Part shown: piece after piece, positions 22,541-63,232 of the stretch
Position numbering within the stretch: position 1 is the stretch's first letter
How the letters are laid out: each line of letters begins with the position of its first letter
DNA from: Bryopsis sp. KO-2023
Taxonomy: Eukaryota > Chlorophyta > Ulvophyceae > Bryopsidales > Bryopsidaceae
Length of the DNA stretch: 64,000 nucleotides
NCBI GenBank assembly: GCA_030272585.1
Contig: BSYQ01000004.1
Location: forward strand, 5,952,001-6,016,000
Direction of reading: 5' to 3'
Notes under the pieces: model-generated
Databases searched by the model: none
What the model was told of the DNA's origin: nothing
Seen by the model: only the letters and a program-made list of their open reading frames with translations
Made by a program: the position numbers and the translations under genes

Positions 22541-24904
22541 ATGGCGGAACAGCCTGGGGCTTCGGCCCCGAAGTTCGCTGTTTTGGTCGTGGCGTGGTAT
22601 CTTTTCACGCTGATCAGCAACATGTCTGGGAAATCTTACGTGAAAGCGACGCTGGACTCGGTTTCGCCCACGACGATTTCTATGGCCTGCGCTGCCCTGG
22701 TGTTCATGGCGTACCAAGTGCCTGCGCTGAAAGCATTGCTAGGGGGTGCCCAAGACCATTCCGAGGCGAAGTTCTCTTGGGCGTTTCACCGCTGGGCGAT
22801 AGGGCTGGGCTTCATCCAATTTTTGGCGACCGCGCTGAGCTATAGCAGTTTCGCTCTATCGTCGGTGTCGTGGACTTATTGCTTCCGTACGTTGGAGCCA
22901 TTGATTTCGGCCTCGTTGCAATACTACGTGGCCGCAGAGAAAATCACTCGGAAGGAGTTCGGCGCGCTCGTCGTGCTGGCCGCTGGAATCGTGGTGACGG
23001 TGAACAGCGGGAGCGGCTCTCAATCGTACGCCGCTTGGCTAGGGGGCCTCGCTTTGATCGCGACGGTTATATACAGCACGAGAAGCGTCATCGGAAGCAA
23101 AGTGATGAAATCTTACAAAAGGTCGGGCTCGGACGTCTTTCTATTGGCGTCCACCTACGGCTGCGGATTCAGCTTGTGGCTGCAGCTGACGATGGCCGTC
23201 GTCCAGGGAGGGTTTTCCATCGAGACGCGGTGGAACCTCGTCCAGCCTCTGCTCATCGCCGGCGTGTTTCACTGCGTGTACAACTTGATGTCGTTCCAAA
23301 TCTTGCATCTCCTGCAGCCCGTCGCTCACGGCGTCTGCAACACGATGAAGCGGGTTTTCATGGTTGTGATGTCAGCGTTGCTCTCGGGGCATTTGCTAAA
23401 CTTGGCGGAGCTGTTCGGGGTGATTGTGGCGAATCTCGGAGCTGGTGTGTATGGATACGAAGCCAAAACTCGAAGGGAGCAACGGGCGAGAATGGCCAAG
23501 ATGCAAGCGGGAAGCAATCTGAATCTCGAGGCGGTCGGGCTGCTGGGTGCTGCGGAGGAAGCCGGGAAAAGCGACGCTCCAACGTCCGCAAAATCCGTCG
23601 AACAAGGCGAATTGCACTCCAAGATGGCCACGAGACTGGTGACGTGCAGCTGCTTGTCGTCGTTGGTCGGGGTGGTGTTCTTGGCGGTCAGCATGAGGGC
23701 GCTGGATGTTCGGAAAGCTTCTCTAGAGCACGAAACCGCCCCATCAGGCACCAAAAACTTGATATCCGCAACGCAAGAGTTCGTTTTCCGCCAGACATCG
23801 CCGGACGTCTTGAAAGACGTCGACCCGGACCAACTGGTGTTCGAGCACAACGAGTTCAAAAGAATGCGATGCTTGACAGCGATCAACAGGGAGATCGACG
23901 CAAAGTTCCACGGCGTGTTTTCTGGGGCGAAAAACTCGGTGTCTTATGTGGACGTGGGCAGCCATCCTTATGGACATGGGGTGATTCTGTCTGGGGCTCT
24001 CCGAGCAGCTGGGGCTAATGGAAAGTCCATAGGGGTTTTCTGCACCCTACCTGACACAGATGATGACGAAGGGGGAGGCCCCACCTTCATGGGTTGCGAC
24101 GATTCCGACATTCACGAGCATCTGGGGGAAAATTCCTTGGTGATGTTTGGCAGCGGTGCGATTTGGGGGGATCAAAACACCAACGCCCAAGCCAACAGGC
24201 TGGAACTGCTGGAAGACGTCGACTCAGATGCTGAGGAGAGGAAAACTCACCTGGTTCAAATCCCGAACACGTTGGCTTACCAAGGGTCAGACATCTCGGA
24301 CAGGGAGCTGAGGATCCTCCAGAATTTGAGCAACTTCCGGATGTTCGTTCGAGATGAGAAAGGCCGGGACTTTGGCAAGGAGTTATTGCCTAAGAATTTG
24401 GAGGTTGAGCACTGCCCTGACATGGGCTTCCGGGTTGGACCCCTGTTGCACACCCAACAGCCGAAACAGAACGTCCTCATATTGCTGACTCGTATGGATT
24501 TGAGTGCTGCCTACAAGGATGAAATTGAGGCTAACTTGAGCTCCAGAAATATCACGTGGGGAATCGGCAGCTGGGACAAGGCAGTGAAACAAGGTCCGGG
24601 TGATTTCGACATTCATCAGTATTCCGAGCAAAACCTCCTCCGAGAGGTCGATCTTCTCAGCACAGGGTTGGTGGTGATTACGGACGATTCGAAGGCAGCC
24701 ATGCTGTGCATTCTGCTTGGGAAAGCGCATGTATTGATCGAATCCGTTCACACGAAACGTGTTGGGCTGCCGTTCGACGATTTGGAGGACATCAGCCCCG
24801 ATTGTACGTTGGATAATCTACACCAGCTTCGGGTGGATAGCTTGGCGCAAGCCCTGGATGAATCGATGGGGTTGATTGACAAGATGGCCGATAAGAGTAG
24901 ATAA
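22541..24904 (+). CDS. Fusion: triose-phosphate/PEP-translocator-type transporter plus ExoV/pyruvyltransferase-fold domain
   Basis: A single uninterrupted 787-residue frame. Residues 10-308 are a ten-helix drug/metabolite-superfamily carrier of the triose-phosphate translocator (TPT) type: VSWTYCFRTLEPLIS (109-123) and VAHGVCNTMKRVFMVV (261-276) align with family blocks, keeping the phosphate-binding Lys-Arg pair (K270-R271). The other binding Lys is Arg116 here. A charged linker (309-360) leads to an extra hydrophobic segment (about 365-387). Residues 440-787 match the ExoV/polysaccharide pyruvyltransferase fold: FGSGAIWGD (536-544), LVQIPNTLAYQGSD, MFVRDEKGRD, EVEHCPDMGFRVGPL and MLCILLGKAHVLIES. 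However, the usual Asn-Val-Gly-Asp is YGHG and the usual Arg-Leu-His is DSK (716-718). If the carrier termini face the cytosol, the eleventh helix puts this domain in the lumen. Catalysis is therefore doubtful; location is inferred. Confidence 0.85.
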   Translation: MAEQPGASAPKFAVLVVAWYLFTLISNMSGKSYVKATLDSVSPTTISMACAALVFMAYQVPALKALLGGAQDHSEAKFSWAFHRWAIGLGFIQFLATALSYSSFALSSVSWTYCFRTLEPLISASLQYYVAAEKITRKEFGALVVLAAGIVVTVNSGSGSQSYAAWLGGLALIATVIYSTRSVIGSKVMKSYKRSGSDVFLLASTYGCGFSLWLQLTMAVVQGGFSIETRWNLVQPLLIAGVFHCVYNLMSFQILHLLQPVAHGVCNTMKRVFMVVMSALLSGHLLNLAELFGVIVANLGAGVYGYEAKTRREQRARMAKMQAGSNLNLEAVGLLGAAEEAGKSDAPTSAKSVEQGELHSKMATRLVTCSCLSSLVGVVFLAVSMRALDVRKASLEHETAPSGTKNLISATQEFVFRQTSPDVLKDVDPDQLVFEHNEFKRMRCLTAINREIDAKFHGVFSGAKNSVSYVDVGSHPYGHGVILSGALRAAGANGKSIGVFCTLPDTDDDEGGGPTFMGCDDSDIHEHLGENSLVMFGSGAIWGDQNTNAQANRLELLEDVDSDAEERKTHLVQIPNTLAYQGSDISDRELRILQNLSNFRMFVRDEKGRDFGKELLPKNLEVEHCPDMGFRVGPLLHTQQPKQNVLILLTRMDLSAAYKDEIEANLSSRNITWGIGSWDKAVKQGPGDFDIHQYSEQNLLREVDLLSTGLVVITDDSKAAMLCILLGKAHVLIESVHTKRVGLPFDDLEDISPDCTLDNLHQLRVDSLAQALDESMGLIDKMADKSR

Positions 24905-26074
24905 CATCTGTGGTTCTTTGGGCTACCCCCCCCCCTCCCTTCCTTCTCTTCCTGCGCCCTGCCCTACCTTAATTTTGTCCCGATTTGTTTGAATTCCTGG
25001 ATCTTAGTCATCATCCTTGGATCACAGATGGATTTCAGGCATGCATGCATCCTTCTGAGCTCTTGATGTGCAGGAGGCAAAGAAACAAAAAACAAACGAA
25101 ACATGGGCAGTTTCTGTGGAGGGTTTCGAGACATATGTGGGGTTTTCTTTCGCTGTGTTTACTTCTGTGAGTGAATAGTCTTCCCAGCTTAACCCAGGGA
25201 AAAATAGGAACCCAGAGCATCACAGTGGGTTGGGGTGTTGGCTGGGAAGTTGTCTAAACGGGTCGTCTTTCCATATGGAGTTTGGGATGGATAGTGTTTT
25301 CTGGGGTAGTTCCGTAGCTGGGATTCGTTCCTGAAAAAGTGTTCACAAAAAGTGTTTCTCAACTTTTGCACCGATAAATACGGAAATGGTGGGCATGCCA
25401 AGAGGCAGGGCACCATCACTCCTAACGAAAAAAGAAAGAAAAAAAGAAAAAGAAAAGAAAGAATGAAGGAAGGAAGGAAGGGATAAAAGATGAATCAAAA
25501 ATAGGGTAGTTCTCGCGAACATACATTCTTTCATATTCAATTGCGTTGCATTATTGTCCCAAGAAGAAATTTTTGAAGTGGGGAGAAGGGGGGGAATTCC
25601 AAAATGACATAAGCATTTTGTTTGACGGTGACTGTGTAGATCATCGACATTCGAGGTTTAATCGAACTGTGAAATATTCTTGAAATTCCCTTTGGTGGGC
25701 TTCCTTTCAGAACTTCCCTTGGGAACCTCATGGATTTTTATTAAGTTTTTTTTTGGGGGGGGGCTGGCTGTGCTGTTTGAAGGAGAGGGGAGTTCACGTT
25801 CTGTAGTTTGAGGGTTTTTTCTTTTTCTGGGTCCAAAGGAATCACCCCCCCCCCCAAAAAAAAAGGAAAAGACACAACTGCACGAGCGCAAACGTTGAGT
25901 AAACCTCTGAGGATGTCGGATTCCTGACCTCCATTCCAATTTGCGCAAATGAGCAATCTCTCGTAGGTACGGTTCTTCATGTGGTCGCTGGGCTTTTTCC
26001 ATGCAAGTTTCGAAAAAAACGGTTGAATTTCCGTTCTGTCGGAAATTCACGCAGGAGCGCCCTGGTTGGCCGAA
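24905..26074. other. Intergenic, no gene recognised
   Basis: Between two same-strand transporter genes. It contains poly-C/poly-G runs near 24,930, 25,755 and 25,850 and a (GAAG)n stretch near 25,460. The long minus-strand frame at 25.7-26.4 kb overlaps the transporter start and has no protein-family features. Confidence 0.5.
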
Positions 26075-27241
26075 ATGGGCAACGTCGGTCATCCCCGTCA
26101 TTGGCATCAGAATTCGCAAGGGCTGCAATATCCGTCCATGATAGTGGAAAAAGTGCATCTCGCGAAAGACATGCCTCGAAGCCCAACCGCTTACACCACA
26201 ACAGACGTCGACTCTGTGGCGAGGGCGTCGGAGAGTGGAGTAGGGCTCGATGTGGAAAGCAACCCATTTCTGCCTGGTCGGGAATTTTTCTTGGACACCC
26301 GCAAGTCGAGAAGCTTTCCCGTTTCCGTGGAAGTGATTTCTGGATGCTGTTATTGCGGAACTTCGGTGGGGATGGTGCTCCTCAACAAAGCGGTGTTGTC
26401 GTCCTTTGACTTTCACGCCCCGAATTCGCTTTTGTTTTTCCAGTGCGCGATGGCGCTGGTTATGATTTGCGCGTGTCGGGCTCTGGGGTGGGTGTCGACG
26501 GACCCAATTGATTGGCGGGTCGTGAAATTGTGGTGCCCGGTGAACTTGATATTCGTGGGGATGGTGTGGACCAGTTTTTACTCGCTGAAAAACCTGGGAG
26601 TGGCGATGGTCACGCTGCTCAAAAACACGACCAATTTCCTGGTGATTACGGGGGACTTGGTTTTGTTCGGGAAGAGGTACAACGGCGGAGTTTGGGGGGC
26701 CGTTTGCCTGATCCTACTTTCCTCGATGGTGGGTGGAGCCACGGACCTGTCGTTCTCGCTGGTGGGCTATACCTGGCAGCTTCTGAACTGCTGCTTCTCG
26801 GCTGGATACTCCCTCTACCTCAAATTGGTCATGGAGAAAATTTCCACGATCACAGGGAAGCCCAAGGGAATGGAAGAATCCACCATGGTGCTGTATAACA
26901 ACGGGCTGGCCCTGCCTTGGATCCTGCTGCTGATGTTTTACTTCGGGGAGACCGAATCGGTGTGGAAGCAACCGGCGCTGTACGATTCCACCTTCCAATT
27001 GGCTGCCATCGTTTCGGGGGTGCTAGGATTCATGATCAGTTTCGCGTCCCTGTGGTTTCTGGCAAACACGGCAGCCACAAATTACTCCCTCGTGGGTTCT
27101 CTCAACAAACTGCCCACTGCGATTCTGGGGATGCTGCTGTTCAACACCCCGATGACCACCAGCAACGTTTTGAGCGTCTTGGTGGGGCTGGCGGCTGGAG
27201 TGCTATTCGTCGCAGCGAAATCTCGGAATGGCAAATCGTGA
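26075..27241 (+). CDS. GDP-mannose-type nucleotide-sugar transporter
   Basis: An intronless 388-residue multi-pass protein of the Vrg4/GONST1 type, which exchanges GDP-sugars for GMP across the Golgi membrane. The first in-frame ATG is at 26075; a TTG three codons earlier was not used. About 85 hydrophilic residues precede roughly ten membrane helices. The family motifs are present: an FxxNK-like MVLLNKAVLSSF near the first helix, LYNN (residues 273-276, FYNN in Vrg4) and GSLNK (341-345, GALNK in Vrg4), the two GDP-binding motifs. The C-terminus AAKSRNGKS is short. It lies 1.2 kb downstream of the transporter fusion gene on the same strand and is likewise unspliced. GDP-fucose or GDP-arabinose as the substrate cannot be excluded. 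Confidence 0.85.
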   Translation: MGNVGHPRHWHQNSQGLQYPSMIVEKVHLAKDMPRSPTAYTTTDVDSVARASESGVGLDVESNPFLPGREFFLDTRKSRSFPVSVEVISGCCYCGTSVGMVLLNKAVLSSFDFHAPNSLLFFQCAMALVMICACRALGWVSTDPIDWRVVKLWCPVNLIFVGMVWTSFYSLKNLGVAMVTLLKNTTNFLVITGDLVLFGKRYNGGVWGAVCLILLSSMVGGATDLSFSLVGYTWQLLNCCFSAGYSLYLKLVMEKISTITGKPKGMEESTMVLYNNGLALPWILLLMFYFGETESVWKQPALYDSTFQLAAIVSGVLGFMISFASLWFLANTAATNYSLVGSLNKLPTAILGMLLFNTPMTTSNVLSVLVGLAAGVLFVAAKSRNGKS

Positions 27242-57997: not shown

Positions 57998-58187
57998 TGT
58001 TGGGCTAAGGATTCTGAAAGGCTAGGGGGTACAGTCAGTTTAAGTGAATGTGGTGGGTTGAATCATGTTTGTAGCTGGTGGTCATGGTCTAGTCATGGGG
58101 AATCGGGAAGGATAAGGTGGCGTCTGTGAGAGGGAAAACTGACTCTTGTAAAAGTTTGGAAGCAACTTTGTGTGCGAGAGTCTTACA
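57998..58187 (+). repeat. Left LTR (190 bp)
   Basis: Begins TGTTGGGCTAAGG and ends GTCTTACA. I found no difference from the copy at 63269-63458. It would contain the promoter of the element, but no obvious TATA box is visible. Confidence 0.95.
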
Positions 58188-61100
58188 TGGTTTCGGAGCC
58201 AAGTCGCCACTGGGCGACCGCTCTATTTGTGCTCTGCACACTTTTATCTTTCGAACCAGCGAAAGCAATTTGGCCGTTCGGATCTGGGACAAAGCCGGCG
58301 GCCGCTGAGACAAAAGAACTTTTGGAGGCATATCGGGAACTCGCGAGGATGAACTTACAACACCGACAGAACGAAAGGGTCTGGGAAAAGGAAAGGTTGA
58401 CTTGGGAACGCGAGAGGAAGCGACTTCAGAATGCGCTCAGGGCAGCCCAAAGTGGGAACGAAGATCTACCGACTACGGAGGTCGACGAAAGCGCAGAAAC
58501 GAAAACGGAGCCTGAAAAAGTTGCGACAGCAACTTCCAGCGACCTAGTGGAGACACTAGATGAAGTTGGGATGGTGGATCTGGAGGTTGATGGTGACGGC
58601 GGACACGAAAAGGGAAAAGAGGAACACTCAAAAGGCTTTGACGAAACTCCGTCGGCGTCGGGACAGACCCAAGAGGTGTCCAGCGTCGGCGGCGGTGACT
58701 TCGGCGGAGGAATGGCCACGGGGACTTTACTCGCTTTTGTAACCGGAGTGGCGTGGACGTGTTGGAGTCGTTGGTCAGGGCGTCGCCATGGGATTGGGAA
58801 TAGGAGACGAGGCACGGGGGTTCGAACCCAGCTGCCGTCGTTTGCAAAATATGCTTCGACTTTGAAGTCATGGAACAGTCGGATTCAAGAGCGGGTGATG
58901 CGGGACCTCGAAACAACGGTAGAGGATATTCCCGCTCGAATTCGATTGCTGTGGTCCATGTTTGATCAGGGGACTGAATTTGGAGGTATAATGTTGGATT
59001 CGATCAAAACAAAAATCGATCAATATACGGGTTCGAAACCGCTACCTCCCGATGGCGAATCGGAGATCGCCGGGCTATTGATCCACCTCGACGAGTTATG
59101 GGACGATATCAGAGCGCTCCTCGATGACTTTGTGCTCGATGACTTTGAGCCCCATATCCTAGAGAGGCTCAAAAGCTTAAAGAAGGGCGGAGGAGAGAAC
59201 TGGATCGAGTTCCTCTCCAGATTCTATTTAACTTATCGCCAAAAGAGTGAGGGGGTTGAGGAAGCTGCAGCGGTAAAGATCTTCCACGGGCGATTACCGA
59301 GCCACCTCGTCGAGAAGATCCTCGAGGGAGTCAATGATCCCAGCGAAGTTACTTTTGACACTCTGCGAGTCTTTTTTAAGAAGCGAGGTCAGATTGAGTC
59401 ATATCAAGGAATGCTTACGCAACCAGCGCTGCCTCCAGCGACGACATCGAAGGACAACAGCCGTCGTCAGATGCCTTCGCGAAAGCCGCCACCACAATGC
59501 AGTTACTGCGGAAAAAGTGGTCACGGAAGGGAGGAATGTTACAAACGGCGCGCTAATGAGGCGAAAAAGAGTGGATCCAGAGGAGATTATCGACAGGCGC
59601 AAACACATGCGATTACTGCGGACAGGGAGGATTCATTTGGGATCCCAGTGACATCCGACTTCGAAAATATGTCGCTGATGGCTCCCACTGCTCAGGAACC
59701 GTATTCGCTGCAGTGCGCTGCGATCATCGATACTGGTATCGGCAAAAAGCAGCTCTTTGCCTCAGTTCAAATTCAAGACAAAACAGAACATGTTTTAATC
59801 GATCCCGGAAGTGAGATCAATCTCGTTCCAGTTTCCTACTGCAAACGTTGGGGTTTGACGGTCACAGAGATGGTGGCGCCCGTTGCAGTCATGGGGTTTA
59901 ACTCGACTAAAGAGAGTTTGGTGGGATCGGTAAATCTGACGGTTACGCTGGGATCGATTTCGAAAAACATCACTTTCTATTTGGCTGCTGCAAATAGGCG
60001 ACTTATTTTGGGTTTGCCGGCTTTGAATGCTTTTGACGTGAGTGTCGATTGTGGTATTGGACAGCTCCGCCTTCCGGGAGGGAAACACGTACACTGCCAT
60101 GCAGTGGAGGCGACGTCGCCAGATCGCACGAACGTCAAGTTTAGCAAAAAGGAGGGAACGGTGAGCAGGATGCGCGCCCGACATGGACGTTGGGAAGTCC
60201 CACTGGGACGGCCACTCGTTTTAGGGCCTGGGGAAACTAAATCGGTCATTCTGCCTTTTACTGCCGAAGGGTCAGGGATCATGGGTGTAATTCCCATTTG
60301 TCAGATCCCCAAGATTTTTGCAGCACCCAGTCTGGGATCGAAGGGACAACTAAAAATCCAGTTTTTTAATTCTGGATCCGAGAGTAAATTATTGTCCCAA
60401 AAAATGACACCAGTGGGCATTCTGGTGGACCCAAACTGTCGAATCGACTGGGCTGTTGATGGTTTTGCTGCAGGTCCGGCTACCTTGGTTGAAAAGATCA
60501 GCACATCAGATGCAATAAGGGGCAAATCAGTGGATCCATTGCACCCTGGGCTAGGGGGATCCACAGAATCGGTTTCCCGAGCGGAGTTTTCAGAGGGAAG
60601 CGAGAGTTTCAAATTACGTTTGGGTTTAAAAAAAAGGGGAGAAAAAAAACGATTGGAAACGATTTCAGAGGGGTTTTGTTGGCCCAAATCAGAGGAGGTT
60701 AATGCAGGCAAGGAGTTGGAGGACAAATCTGGATGTAAAAAACACATTCATTCGGTAGTGGAACAGCCAACAGTAGAGTCTCCCACAGCCCCCAAACTGA
60801 CACGACCTTCAGCAAAAATGGCGTACTGGCTGGGTCTTTTCCCGACTTTATTTTCGATCGCGGAAAGTTTCGGACAAACCGATTACTTAAAGTCGATACA
60901 GGTCTGTCACAGAGAGATAGCGTGGAAGGTTGACGTGGATAAGATACCGCTAATGAACTCGGGAAAGGTGTACAACGTTGGGGATGTGACGGAATCGGAG
61001 ATGCGACGATTTGTGGACGACTTGACGACTTCTGGAGTCGTCGAGCCGATGCATCCTTCGGAAAAGGGTTTTTTTAGCCCGGTAATGTTCTTAAGGAAAC

Positions 61101-61384
61101 CGGATGGGGTGCGGGTTCGCAAAGTCGTGGACTTCCGCCTGCTAAACGCGTATTCGGAGGTATGGCGCACCCCGTTTCGAGGAGTAATACCGACGCTGCG
61201 ACGGATTCCAGGGAACTGGGATCGATTCACGATACTCGATCTAACTCACGGTTTTTATCACGTGCCAGTCTGTGAACGTTTACAGCCACTCTTCGGGTTT
61301 GAAGTCCTTGGCAGAAGATATAAGTATCGAACCTTACCGCAAGGATGGTCCAGTTCAGCGGCGATGTTCCATTCGCAAATTTAA
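58187..61384 (+). CDS. Gag, protease and N-terminal part of reverse transcriptase
   Basis: An ATG formed by the last LTR base and the start of the primer-binding site opens a 1,065-codon frame. Residues 9-27 form a hydrophobic, signal-peptide-like segment (ATALFVLCTLLSF), followed by a coiled coil, an acidic stretch and a second hydrophobic segment (about 176-194). A Gag-type helical region comes next, then a zinc knuckle CSYCGKSGHGREEC (C-X2-C-X4-H-X4-C). The retropepsin has VLIDPGSEINLV (DPG instead of DTG/DSG) and LILGLPAL. Reverse transcriptase begins with VVEPMHPSEKGFFSPVMFLR and has the first catalytic aspartate in FTILDLTHGF and LPQGWSSSAAMF. It ends at TAA before the YVDD motif, so the product alone cannot be active. 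Confidence 0.9.
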   Translation: MVSEPSRHWATALFVLCTLLSFEPAKAIWPFGSGTKPAAAETKELLEAYRELARMNLQHRQNERVWEKERLTWERERKRLQNALRAAQSGNEDLPTTEVDESAETKTEPEKVATATSSDLVETLDEVGMVDLEVDGDGGHEKGKEEHSKGFDETPSASGQTQEVSSVGGGDFGGGMATGTLLAFVTGVAWTCWSRWSGRRHGIGNRRRGTGVRTQLPSFAKYASTLKSWNSRIQERVMRDLETTVEDIPARIRLLWSMFDQGTEFGGIMLDSIKTKIDQYTGSKPLPPDGESEIAGLLIHLDELWDDIRALLDDFVLDDFEPHILERLKSLKKGGGENWIEFLSRFYLTYRQKSEGVEEAAAVKIFHGRLPSHLVEKILEGVNDPSEVTFDTLRVFFKKRGQIESYQGMLTQPALPPATTSKDNSRRQMPSRKPPPQCSYCGKSGHGREECYKRRANEAKKSGSRGDYRQAQTHAITADREDSFGIPVTSDFENMSLMAPTAQEPYSLQCAAIIDTGIGKKQLFASVQIQDKTEHVLIDPGSEINLVPVSYCKRWGLTVTEMVAPVAVMGFNSTKESLVGSVNLTVTLGSISKNITFYLAAANRRLILGLPALNAFDVSVDCGIGQLRLPGGKHVHCHAVEATSPDRTNVKFSKKEGTVSRMRARHGRWEVPLGRPLVLGPGETKSVILPFTAEGSGIMGVIPICQIPKIFAAPSLGSKGQLKIQFFNSGSESKLLSQKMTPVGILVDPNCRIDWAVDGFAAGPATLVEKISTSDAIRGKSVDPLHPGLGGSTESVSRAEFSEGSESFKLRLGLKKRGEKKRLETISEGFCWPKSEEVNAGKELEDKSGCKKHIHSVVEQPTVESPTAPKLTRPSAKMAYWLGLFPTLFSIAESFGQTDYLKSIQVCHREIAWKVDVDKIPLMNSGKVYNVGDVTESEMRRFVDDLTTSGVVEPMHPSEKGFFSPVMFLRKPDGVRVRKVVDFRLLNAYSEVWRTPFRGVIPTLRRIPGNWDRFTILDLTHGFYHVPVCERLQPLFGFEVLGRRYKYRTLPQGWSSSAAMFHSQI
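58188..58200 (+). other. Primer-binding site, initiator tRNA-Met type
   Basis: TGGTTTCGGAGCC starts right after the LTR and differs at two bases from TGGTATCAGAGCC, the site complementary to the 3' end of initiator tRNA-Met that many plant LTR elements use. Confidence 0.75.
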
Positions 61385-63232
61385 TCCAGTCTCGCCGACA
61401 CCCCAGGGATTCCGTACGTCGACGACATTATAGTCGGCGGAAATGGCCAGAAAGAGCATGACGACAACTTACAGGCGGTGTTAGCGAGACTGGAGTCGAT
61501 GGGGATGCATCTGAACGCCGACAAAATTCAACTGTCACAAGAAAGAGTGACATTTCTGGGGTATGATGTGTCGAAAGGACGAATCGGACTGGGATCGTAT
61601 ATCGAAAAACAAAAGGGACAGTTACCCGAGGGAGTCACTATGCGGGAAATCCGAAAGATTTTGGGGATATTTAATATCTGTCGGATTACATGTCCCGGGC
61701 TGGCTGAGCTTGTACGACCTCTACAGGAAATCATGAATCAGAAGATTCCTACTGAGTTGGGAAAACTTCAACAACTGGTGAAGGACATTTGGGGAGAGGT
61801 TATCAAAAGGCAAGTTGACATTTGGTTGGAATCAGAAGAAGAGGAGTTGGAATTGATGATCGACTGGAGCGAAACTGGTTATGGGTATGGTTTATTTTCT
61901 GGACCATACAAAAAAGGACATTTGATAGGATTAAATTCCATCTCCAGAAGTGGACAGATGACCAGCAGTTTTTTGGGTGAATTGCAGGGTTTATCCTGGG
62001 CACTCAAAAGCATCAAGGAATTGGCTGCTGGAAGAAAGGTAACTGTCTGGACAGACAGTGAAAGTATTTTCAAAAGATTGAACGGAGGGGTGAAACAGGG
62101 GGAAATTACTGACGTTCGAGTCAGCCGAATTTTGGGATGGATCTGGGAAAACTATCCCTCGAGTAGGCTGACTGTGAAGTTCATCCCAGGACAGTATAAT
62201 GATCTGGCCGATGTCCTGTCAAGGTGGCAGAAACCGATTACAGCGAAAGTCGGATCTACACAACTGGGTGAAAGGAGGAGTGCGATTGTTGACCTTCATC
62301 GTGAAGGACACTGGGGATCCAAGAAGTTGTTGGCGATCGCGAGGGAGCGGGGTCTCGATTTCGGTTTGGAGGAACTGCAGGACGAGGTAATGCGCTGCAG
62401 GGTCTGTAATCGTTTTGGACCCCCTAAATCAAAGAGCAGGATCGGAAGTTTCGAAATACCTGGAACGGTAGGAGAACATTTGAGCGTCGATTTTCTGGGA
62501 CCACTCAGGGGAGTTGGCGACAAGAAGAAATATATCTTTTGTGTTGTCGATCGACTGAGTCGATTAGGTGGAGCATGGGTTGTCGACAAGGCGAATACAG
62601 AGAGTGTTCTTCAGGGATTAGATGCATGGATTAAACGCCAAGGCATCGTGCCGAAGAGGATTCTGAGTGACGGAGCGACATACTTTATGTCGCAAGGGAT
62701 GTATGAGTGGGGAAAGAAAAAGGGTGTCGAGATTCAGCATATTCCTGCTCACAGCCATCGCAGCAATGGGTTGGTGGAGCGCTATAACCAATCGATCATC
62801 AGTCGATTGCGTCGCCTTTGGAATGAGCGAGGAGGAGAGTGGGAGCGGCATGTGACCACTGCAGTGGAATGGATCAATTCGGCGCCACACACAGCATTGG
62901 GGCGAACACCACTGGAAGTCTGGAACGGAGACGAGTCGGTTTTGAACGACGTCAGAGAACGGCTGACCAAGATTGATGAAAAAATAAACAAGAACCGAAA
63001 AGAATGGGCCCACCGATTTTATCGAGGTCAGTACGTTTACGTTTGGGACGCTGTGCGTGATGGCAGGTTGGATAAAAAATTAGAAAATCAATGGAAGGGG
63101 CCATATACACTGACAGAGCAGATTTCCACACATCTGTGGAGGGTGTCAGCTGTGAATGGTCCAAAAGGAAAGCAAAGGGGAAGGAAGGCACGAATGGTCA
63201 TACACACTGACCATTTGAAGCCGTACTACTGA
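61385..63232 (+). CDS. C-terminal reverse transcriptase, RNase H and integrase
   Basis: Continues in the same frame directly after the TAA and ends at the TGA before the right LTR (615 codons). YVDD (two catalytic aspartates) comes within the first 15 codons, then FLGYDVSKGRI. RNase H has IDWSETGYGYGLF, the glutamate in GELQGLSWAL, WTDSESIF and DLADVLSR, so all four acidic residues are present. Integrase has the zinc-binding HREGH and CRVC pair, then the D,D-35-E triad in LSVDFLGPL, LSDGATYF and NGLVERYNQ, and a C-terminal WKGPYTL module. The downstream ATG at 61478 lies past YVDD, so separate translation would give no intact reverse transcriptase. Confidence 0.9.
   Translation, partial: SSLADTPGIPYVDDIIVGGNGQKEHDDNLQAVLARLESMGMHLNADKIQLSQERVTFLGYDVSKGRIGLGSYIEKQKGQLPEGVTMREIRKILGIFNICRITCPGLAELVRPLQEIMNQKIPTELGKLQQLVKDIWGEVIKRQVDIWLESEEEELELMIDWSETGYGYGLFSGPYKKGHLIGLNSISRSGQMTSSFLGELQGLSWALKSIKELAAGRKVTVWTDSESIFKRLNGGVKQGEITDVRVSRILGWIWENYPSSRLTVKFIPGQYNDLADVLSRWQKPITAKVGSTQLGERRSAIVDLHREGHWGSKKLLAIARERGLDFGLEELQDEVMRCRVCNRFGPPKSKSRIGSFEIPGTVGEHLSVDFLGPLRGVGDKKKYIFCVVDRLSRLGGAWVVDKANTESVLQGLDAWIKRQGIVPKRILSDGATYFMSQGMYEWGKKKGVEIQHIPAHSHRSNGLVERYNQSIISRLRRLWNERGGEWERHVTTAVEWINSAPHTALGRTPLEVWNGDESVLNDVRERLTKIDEKINKNRKEWAHRFYRGQYVYVWDAVRDGRLDKKLENQWKGPYTLTEQISTHLWRVSAVNGPKGKQRGRKARMVIHTDHLKPYY

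Follow-up and report, generated by a model that had tools for sequence, protein, structure and literature searches.

A TPT-family carrier joined in one frame to a pyruvyltransferase-fold domain with replaced active-site residues in the green alga Bryopsis

The fusion gene and its relatives

The analysed window comprises 64,000 nucleotides of the green alga Bryopsis sp. KO-2023 (Chlorophyta, Ulvophyceae, Bryopsidales; assembly GCA_030272585.1, contig BSYQ01000004.1, positions 5,952,001 to 6,016,000) and contains a gene whose product, P0001, joins a carrier of the TPT family to a domain with the fold of pyruvyltransferases. The gene, its parts and the residues discussed below are located as follows:

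22541..24904, plus strand: fusion gene, a single open frame of 787 codons plus stop (open reading frame list, shuffles, protein search)
22574..23452, plus strand: carrier domain, TPT family PF03151, residues 12-304 (Pfam match, structure 5y78)
22886..22888, plus strand: R116, at K204 in transmembrane helix 4 of the solved carrier GsTPT, a conservative Arg for Lys (alignment)
23348..23353, plus strand: K270-R271, at the phosphate-binding K362-R363 in transmembrane helix 9 of GsTPT (alignment)
23453..23635, plus strand: hydrophilic linker, residues 305-365, basic right after the last carrier helix and alignable in P0002 and P0004
23636..23692, plus strand: eleventh hydrophobic segment, residues 366-384 (hydrophobicity)
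23831..24886, plus strand: pyruvyltransferase-fold domain, residues 431-782 (fold and homology matches)
23963..23980, plus strand: H475-P-Y-G-H-G480, replacing H101-x-N103-x-G-D106 of Pvg1 (alignment)
24350..24352, plus strand: R604, the retained equivalent of Pvg1 R217 (alignment)
24683..24694, plus strand: D715-D716-S717-K718, replacing [DN]-R337-L-H339 of Pvg1 (alignment)

The original prediction described one unbroken 787-codon frame that fuses two domains, and we found it correct on both points. Both families could be assigned (see below), and an identical 787-residue protein is present in the public protein collection. Two genes read as one, by a chance open frame or two joined transcripts, would be compatible with the relative P0003, whose known sequence starts in the linker. 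Yet the longest open stretch in 2000 mononucleotide shuffles of the same bases was 249 codons, and two relatives, P0002 and P0004, share the join, with a linker and an eleventh segment that can be aligned as well, which leaves this explanation highly improbable.

The protein search from the fusion scored 7994 candidates sharing most words with it, and more fusions may exist. Among these candidates we found at least three relatives, of which P0002 (805 amino acids) and P0004 (804 amino acids) carry both halves; P0003 (441 amino acids on a 1837-base contig, 74% identity) begins in the linker and represents the fused-type C-terminal part only. A search from the C-terminal part of P0004 returned only P0004 and P0002. 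The carrier of P0001 is 66 and 63% identical to those of P0002 and P0004, the C-terminal domain 43 and 42%; a more constrained carrier half fits, though it does not prove, a C-terminal domain released from a catalytic role. We suppose that P0002-P0004 stem from other Bryopsidales, because a comparable range of identities (83, 56 and 55%) separates the ordinary enzymes P0007, P0008 and P0009 from P0005, an ordinary member of the pyruvyltransferase family in the Bryopsis genome. In a 17-row tree the 13 other sequences lie outside the group formed by the four fused-type domains (100/100, stem 2.07); with its long branches and midpoint root, the tree does not date the fusion. Pattern searches of viral contigs gave 12 matches to the fusion alignment, 10 to P0005 and 55 to the alignment of ordinary sequences, with no relatives among them, and the 410 pattern matches to the fusion in prokaryotic genome contigs likewise included none.

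The carrier half

Residues 12-304 match the TPT family PF03151 with an expectation value (E) of 1.7e-22 and 80.6 bits, against a gathering cut-off of 30. The solved structure 5y78 of the Galdieria plastid triose-phosphate/phosphate translocator (GsTPT) matches the same half with E 5.2e-8. Numbering of GsTPT is given here as chain position plus an offset of 89, chosen so that the phosphate residues fall in place. T97, S100 and Y247 of the fusion stand at H185, T188 and Y339 of GsTPT, presumably functional positions, and do not differ in P0002 and P0004. In the solved structure K204, K362 and R363 hold phosphate (PMC9010763). These basic residues are matched in the alignment by R116, K270 and R271, all identical in P0002 and P0004, so that the predicted TPT-type carrier with its Lys-Arg pair was borne out. 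GsTPT is thus like the fusion in its family, the Lys-Arg pair, the Tyr at Y339 and a basic residue at K204, but unlike it in H185 and T188, with 22.5% identity in the alignment; its solved chain, at 329 residues, is too short to include an enzyme-like domain at the C-terminus. Helix counts fit a ten-helix carrier, yet the predicted local distance difference test (pLDDT) score of AlphaFold lies below 50 over most of the carrier half, and modelling that half alone gave a mean pLDDT of 38.4.

Genome-wide, 19 TPT matches were read as 11 loci. A second carrier gene, of the drug/metabolite transporter (DMT) type, lies about 1.2 kb downstream of the fusion on the same strand (26066..27241, plus strand); its product is GDP-mannose-transporter-like, near fungal GDP-mannose transporters (E 2.3e-34). 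The Lys-Arg pair is missing in this neighbour and in four single-exon paralogues (L002, L005, L007 and L008) and present in two multi-exon TPT genes (L021 and L022). Three TPT loci (L018-L020) gave no match to the Lys-Arg motif patterns, a pattern search that cannot exclude the pair there.

TPTs exchange phosphate compounds, and the fusion carrier could move some small phosphate compound other than phosphoenolpyruvate (PEP), or export inorganic phosphate from the lumen, with the lumenal domain as a tether, sensor or retention signal. The residues T97 and S100 and the better conservation of the carrier half speak for such a substrate. The attached domain comes from a PEP-using enzyme family, and ordinary members of that family are encoded in the same genome; with these points against it, we consider this explanation rather improbable.

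The C-terminal domain and its active-site residues

An ExoV/pyruvyltransferase-like C-terminal domain had been predicted, and residues 431-782 indeed have the fold of Pvg1; another fold for this half, which the original prediction had itself named as the outcome that would count against it, was rejected. The gathering score of PF04230, the pyruvyltransferase family, is 25.3 bits: P0001 has no match, while P0004 and P0002 reach 24.7 and 18.4 bits.

We compared the active sites of the four fused-type domains with those of 12 ordinary PF04230 proteins and five bacterial ones (17 ordinary sequences). The Pvg1p part of the alignment comprises the later positions R217, R337, H339 and K361, where it agrees with the ordinary sequences. 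D106, R217, R337 and H339 (Pvg1 numbering) are uniform in all 17 ordinary relatives, whereas the fused-type domains read H, R, D and K at these positions in 4/4 cases, so that only R217 (R604 of the fusion) is kept. If HPYGHG is set against HxNLGD without a gap in the first motif, G480 falls at D106; the Asp is lost either way. The Arg at R375 of P0005, found in 17/17 ordinary sequences, is R, E, H and K in the four fused-type domains; our guess is that it corresponds to CsaB R207. At K361 the Lys of 17/17 ordinary sequences is R, S, R and T in the fused type, all four of which have a Lys one column earlier. The 12 ordinary sequences share 45 invariant columns, of which the fused domains keep 18 and lose 19, the other eight being mixed.

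Mutants of known enzymes bear on several of these positions. Pvg1p D106A is reported as nearly inactive; modelling placed R217 and R337 on PEP, and expression of R217A and R337A failed (PMC4872226). In CsaB the exchanges R148K/Q (equivalent to R217) and H308A/R (equivalent to H339) are dead (PMC10435577). The replacement of D106, R337 and H339 in 4/4 fused-type sequences and the drift of two further positions invariant in 17/17 ordinary ones weaken the original suggestion that the fused domain itself uses the imported donor.

Linker, eleventh helix and topology

The eleventh helix of the original prediction corresponds to a hydrophobicity peak at residues 366-384 (Kyte-Doolittle 2.18), and a matching segment was found in all four fused-type sequences, P0003 included. 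Carriers of this family have ten helices and both ends in the cytosol, and therefore an eleventh crossing would place the C-terminal domain in the lumen. Such a placement would match that of Pvg1p, a type II protein (PMC4872226). Flanking charges are not decisive for sidedness, with nine Lys/Arg against eight Asp/Glu in residues 305-361 and five against four in residues 386-420. C444, C501, C519 and C755 are conserved in 4/4 fused-type and 12/12 ordinary sequences, and C755 aligns with the Pvg1p Cys counted as C373, which forms a disulfide with C68 (PMC4872226). These cysteines and a sequon in the C-terminal domain (N670-I-T) would fit a lumenal location.

Ordinary pyruvyltransferases of the same genome

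A PF04230 search of the genome (E up to 1) yielded two genes, both ordinary, and did not pick up the fusion. They lie about 37 kb apart on contig C1 (L009 and L010, C1:9288622 and C1:9251934):

Records BSKO_01979 and BSKO_01990: P0005 and P0006/P0010, stand-alone PF04230 proteins

P0005 (520 amino acids) scores 62.4 bits to PF04230, and P0006 (595 amino acids from a TTG; on record as P0010, 586 amino acids) 71.5 bits. Both are 27-28% identical to the fused domain, have an N-terminal hydrophobic stretch (by eye), retain the D, R, R, H and K positions intact and carry no attached carrier. P0005 is not a CsaB, as it reaches 26.5 bits with the NCBIfam CsaB model, whose cut-off is 213.1. No glycan gene cluster was noticed around either gene when the open reading frames of 50 kb were inspected by eye, without a family search. 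Bryopsis plumosa produces a 3-linked beta-galactan bearing 4,6-pyruvate ketals, and ketals of this kind are reported in every member of the Bryopsidales where they were looked for (PMC7550628). Because the B. plumosa galactan is pyruvylated, the two ordinary genes are good candidates for galactan pyruvylation, and from their residues P0005 and P0006 appear to be better candidates for pyruvyl transfer than the fused domain.

A proposed role for the fused domain

We propose that the fusion protein resides in the endomembrane system, probably the Golgi, where its TPT half would carry a small phosphorylated acid, most likely PEP, from the cytosol to the lumen, the Lys-Arg pair binding the phosphate of the substrate. 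The eleventh helix would take the chain across the membrane, exposing to the lumen a pseudo-pyruvyltransferase in which the fold and one PEP-binding Arg persist and the other catalytic residues are gone. This pseudoenzyme would dock with, and perhaps dimerise with, or feed the two ordinary pyruvyltransferases, which would place pyruvate on the wall galactan. We favour this account of a PEP-type carrier with a lumenal pseudo-pyruvyltransferase at a level just below an even chance. More tentative is the broader idea that, in this siphonous green algal lineage, a donor carrier and a catalytically dead enzyme copy constitute a membrane metabolon handing PEP to active pyruvyltransferases; we hold it to be possible but doubtful.

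Several observations weigh against the docking or feeding proposal. D106A is the only exchange assayed among the replaced positions of Pvg1p (PMC4872226), and CsaB H308K and H308S are partly active, H308K binding PEP more tightly and turning over more slowly (PMC10435577). H479, D716 and K718 are identical in all four fused-type sequences and could mean a new active site. The lost columns are not re-fixed more often than others (7/19 versus 92/297, p 0.61), a test that neither supports nor excludes a new site taken as a unit and decides nothing. The better conservation of the carrier could be a general trait of carriers. The substrate is not readable from the carrier's residues, given T97 and S100 in place of GsTPT H185 and T188. 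Finally, the NCBIfam model Tpt for plastid phosphate/PEP translocators (TIGR00817) gives 79.6 bits, below its cut-off of 317.9, and the carrier is best described as related to these translocators and not a member.

Alternatively, the fused domain might have kept transferase activity through a rebuilt site (R604, K718, H475, H479 and D716), working on another acceptor position or sugar or taking a donor that is not PEP; import and use would then be coupled within one chain, as originally suggested. This would account for the equivalent of R217 kept in 4/4 sequences, for the constancy of H479, D716 and K718 across domains 42-43% identical and for the open frame over the whole domain in Bryopsis; CsaB stays partly active with Lys instead of His at the equivalent of H339 (PMC10435577). 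It has to reckon with the loss of D106, whose exchange for Ala almost inactivates Pvg1p (PMC4872226), with the loss of R337 and its reversed charge, with R, E, H or K at the P0005 R375 position and with a K361 Lys lost or moved by one residue. Moreover, five-membered 3,4-ketals are described only for the Codiaceae, so an alternative ketal would lack a known product in Bryopsis (PMC7550628). We judge a rebuilt transferase unlikely, though deserving of serious consideration.

Other features of the window

Two adjacent frames on the plus strand (58184-61381 and 61499-63229) match aspartic protease, reverse transcriptase, RNase H and integrase, several of the matches lying below Pfam cut-offs, and together look like a retrotransposon of the long terminal repeat (LTR) type. 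On the minus strand, the open frame 33224-34222 matches a protein kinase family (PF07714, E 1.1e-22). Rfam gave no matches in the 64,000-nucleotide window.

Comparison with known systems

By sequence, both domains of the fusion belong to known families. Among the papers listed by literature searches on pyruvyltransferases, phosphate translocators and algal galactans, we recognised no carrier-pyruvyltransferase fusion and found no named genes for galactan pyruvylation in green seaweeds, a search that covered titles and abstract openings, most subscription papers lying outside it. In Schizosaccharomyces pombe, Pvg1p (5ax7) is a separate protein with D106, R337, H339 and K361, whereas in the fusion the first three are gone and K361 is gone or shifted. 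The fission yeast Golgi PEP carriers Pet1p and Pet2p, proposed to supply PEP for pyruvylation and so to feed the lumenal Pvg1p, are proteins separate from it (PMC4872226); we liken them to the fusion carrier by proposed role. The supply of donors to lumenal transferases and complexes of carriers with transferases are usually studied on separate proteins, and a naturally occurring covalent fusion identifies the partners. For the pyruvylation of green-seaweed galactans, the two ordinary enzymes and the fusion carrier form a candidate gene set.
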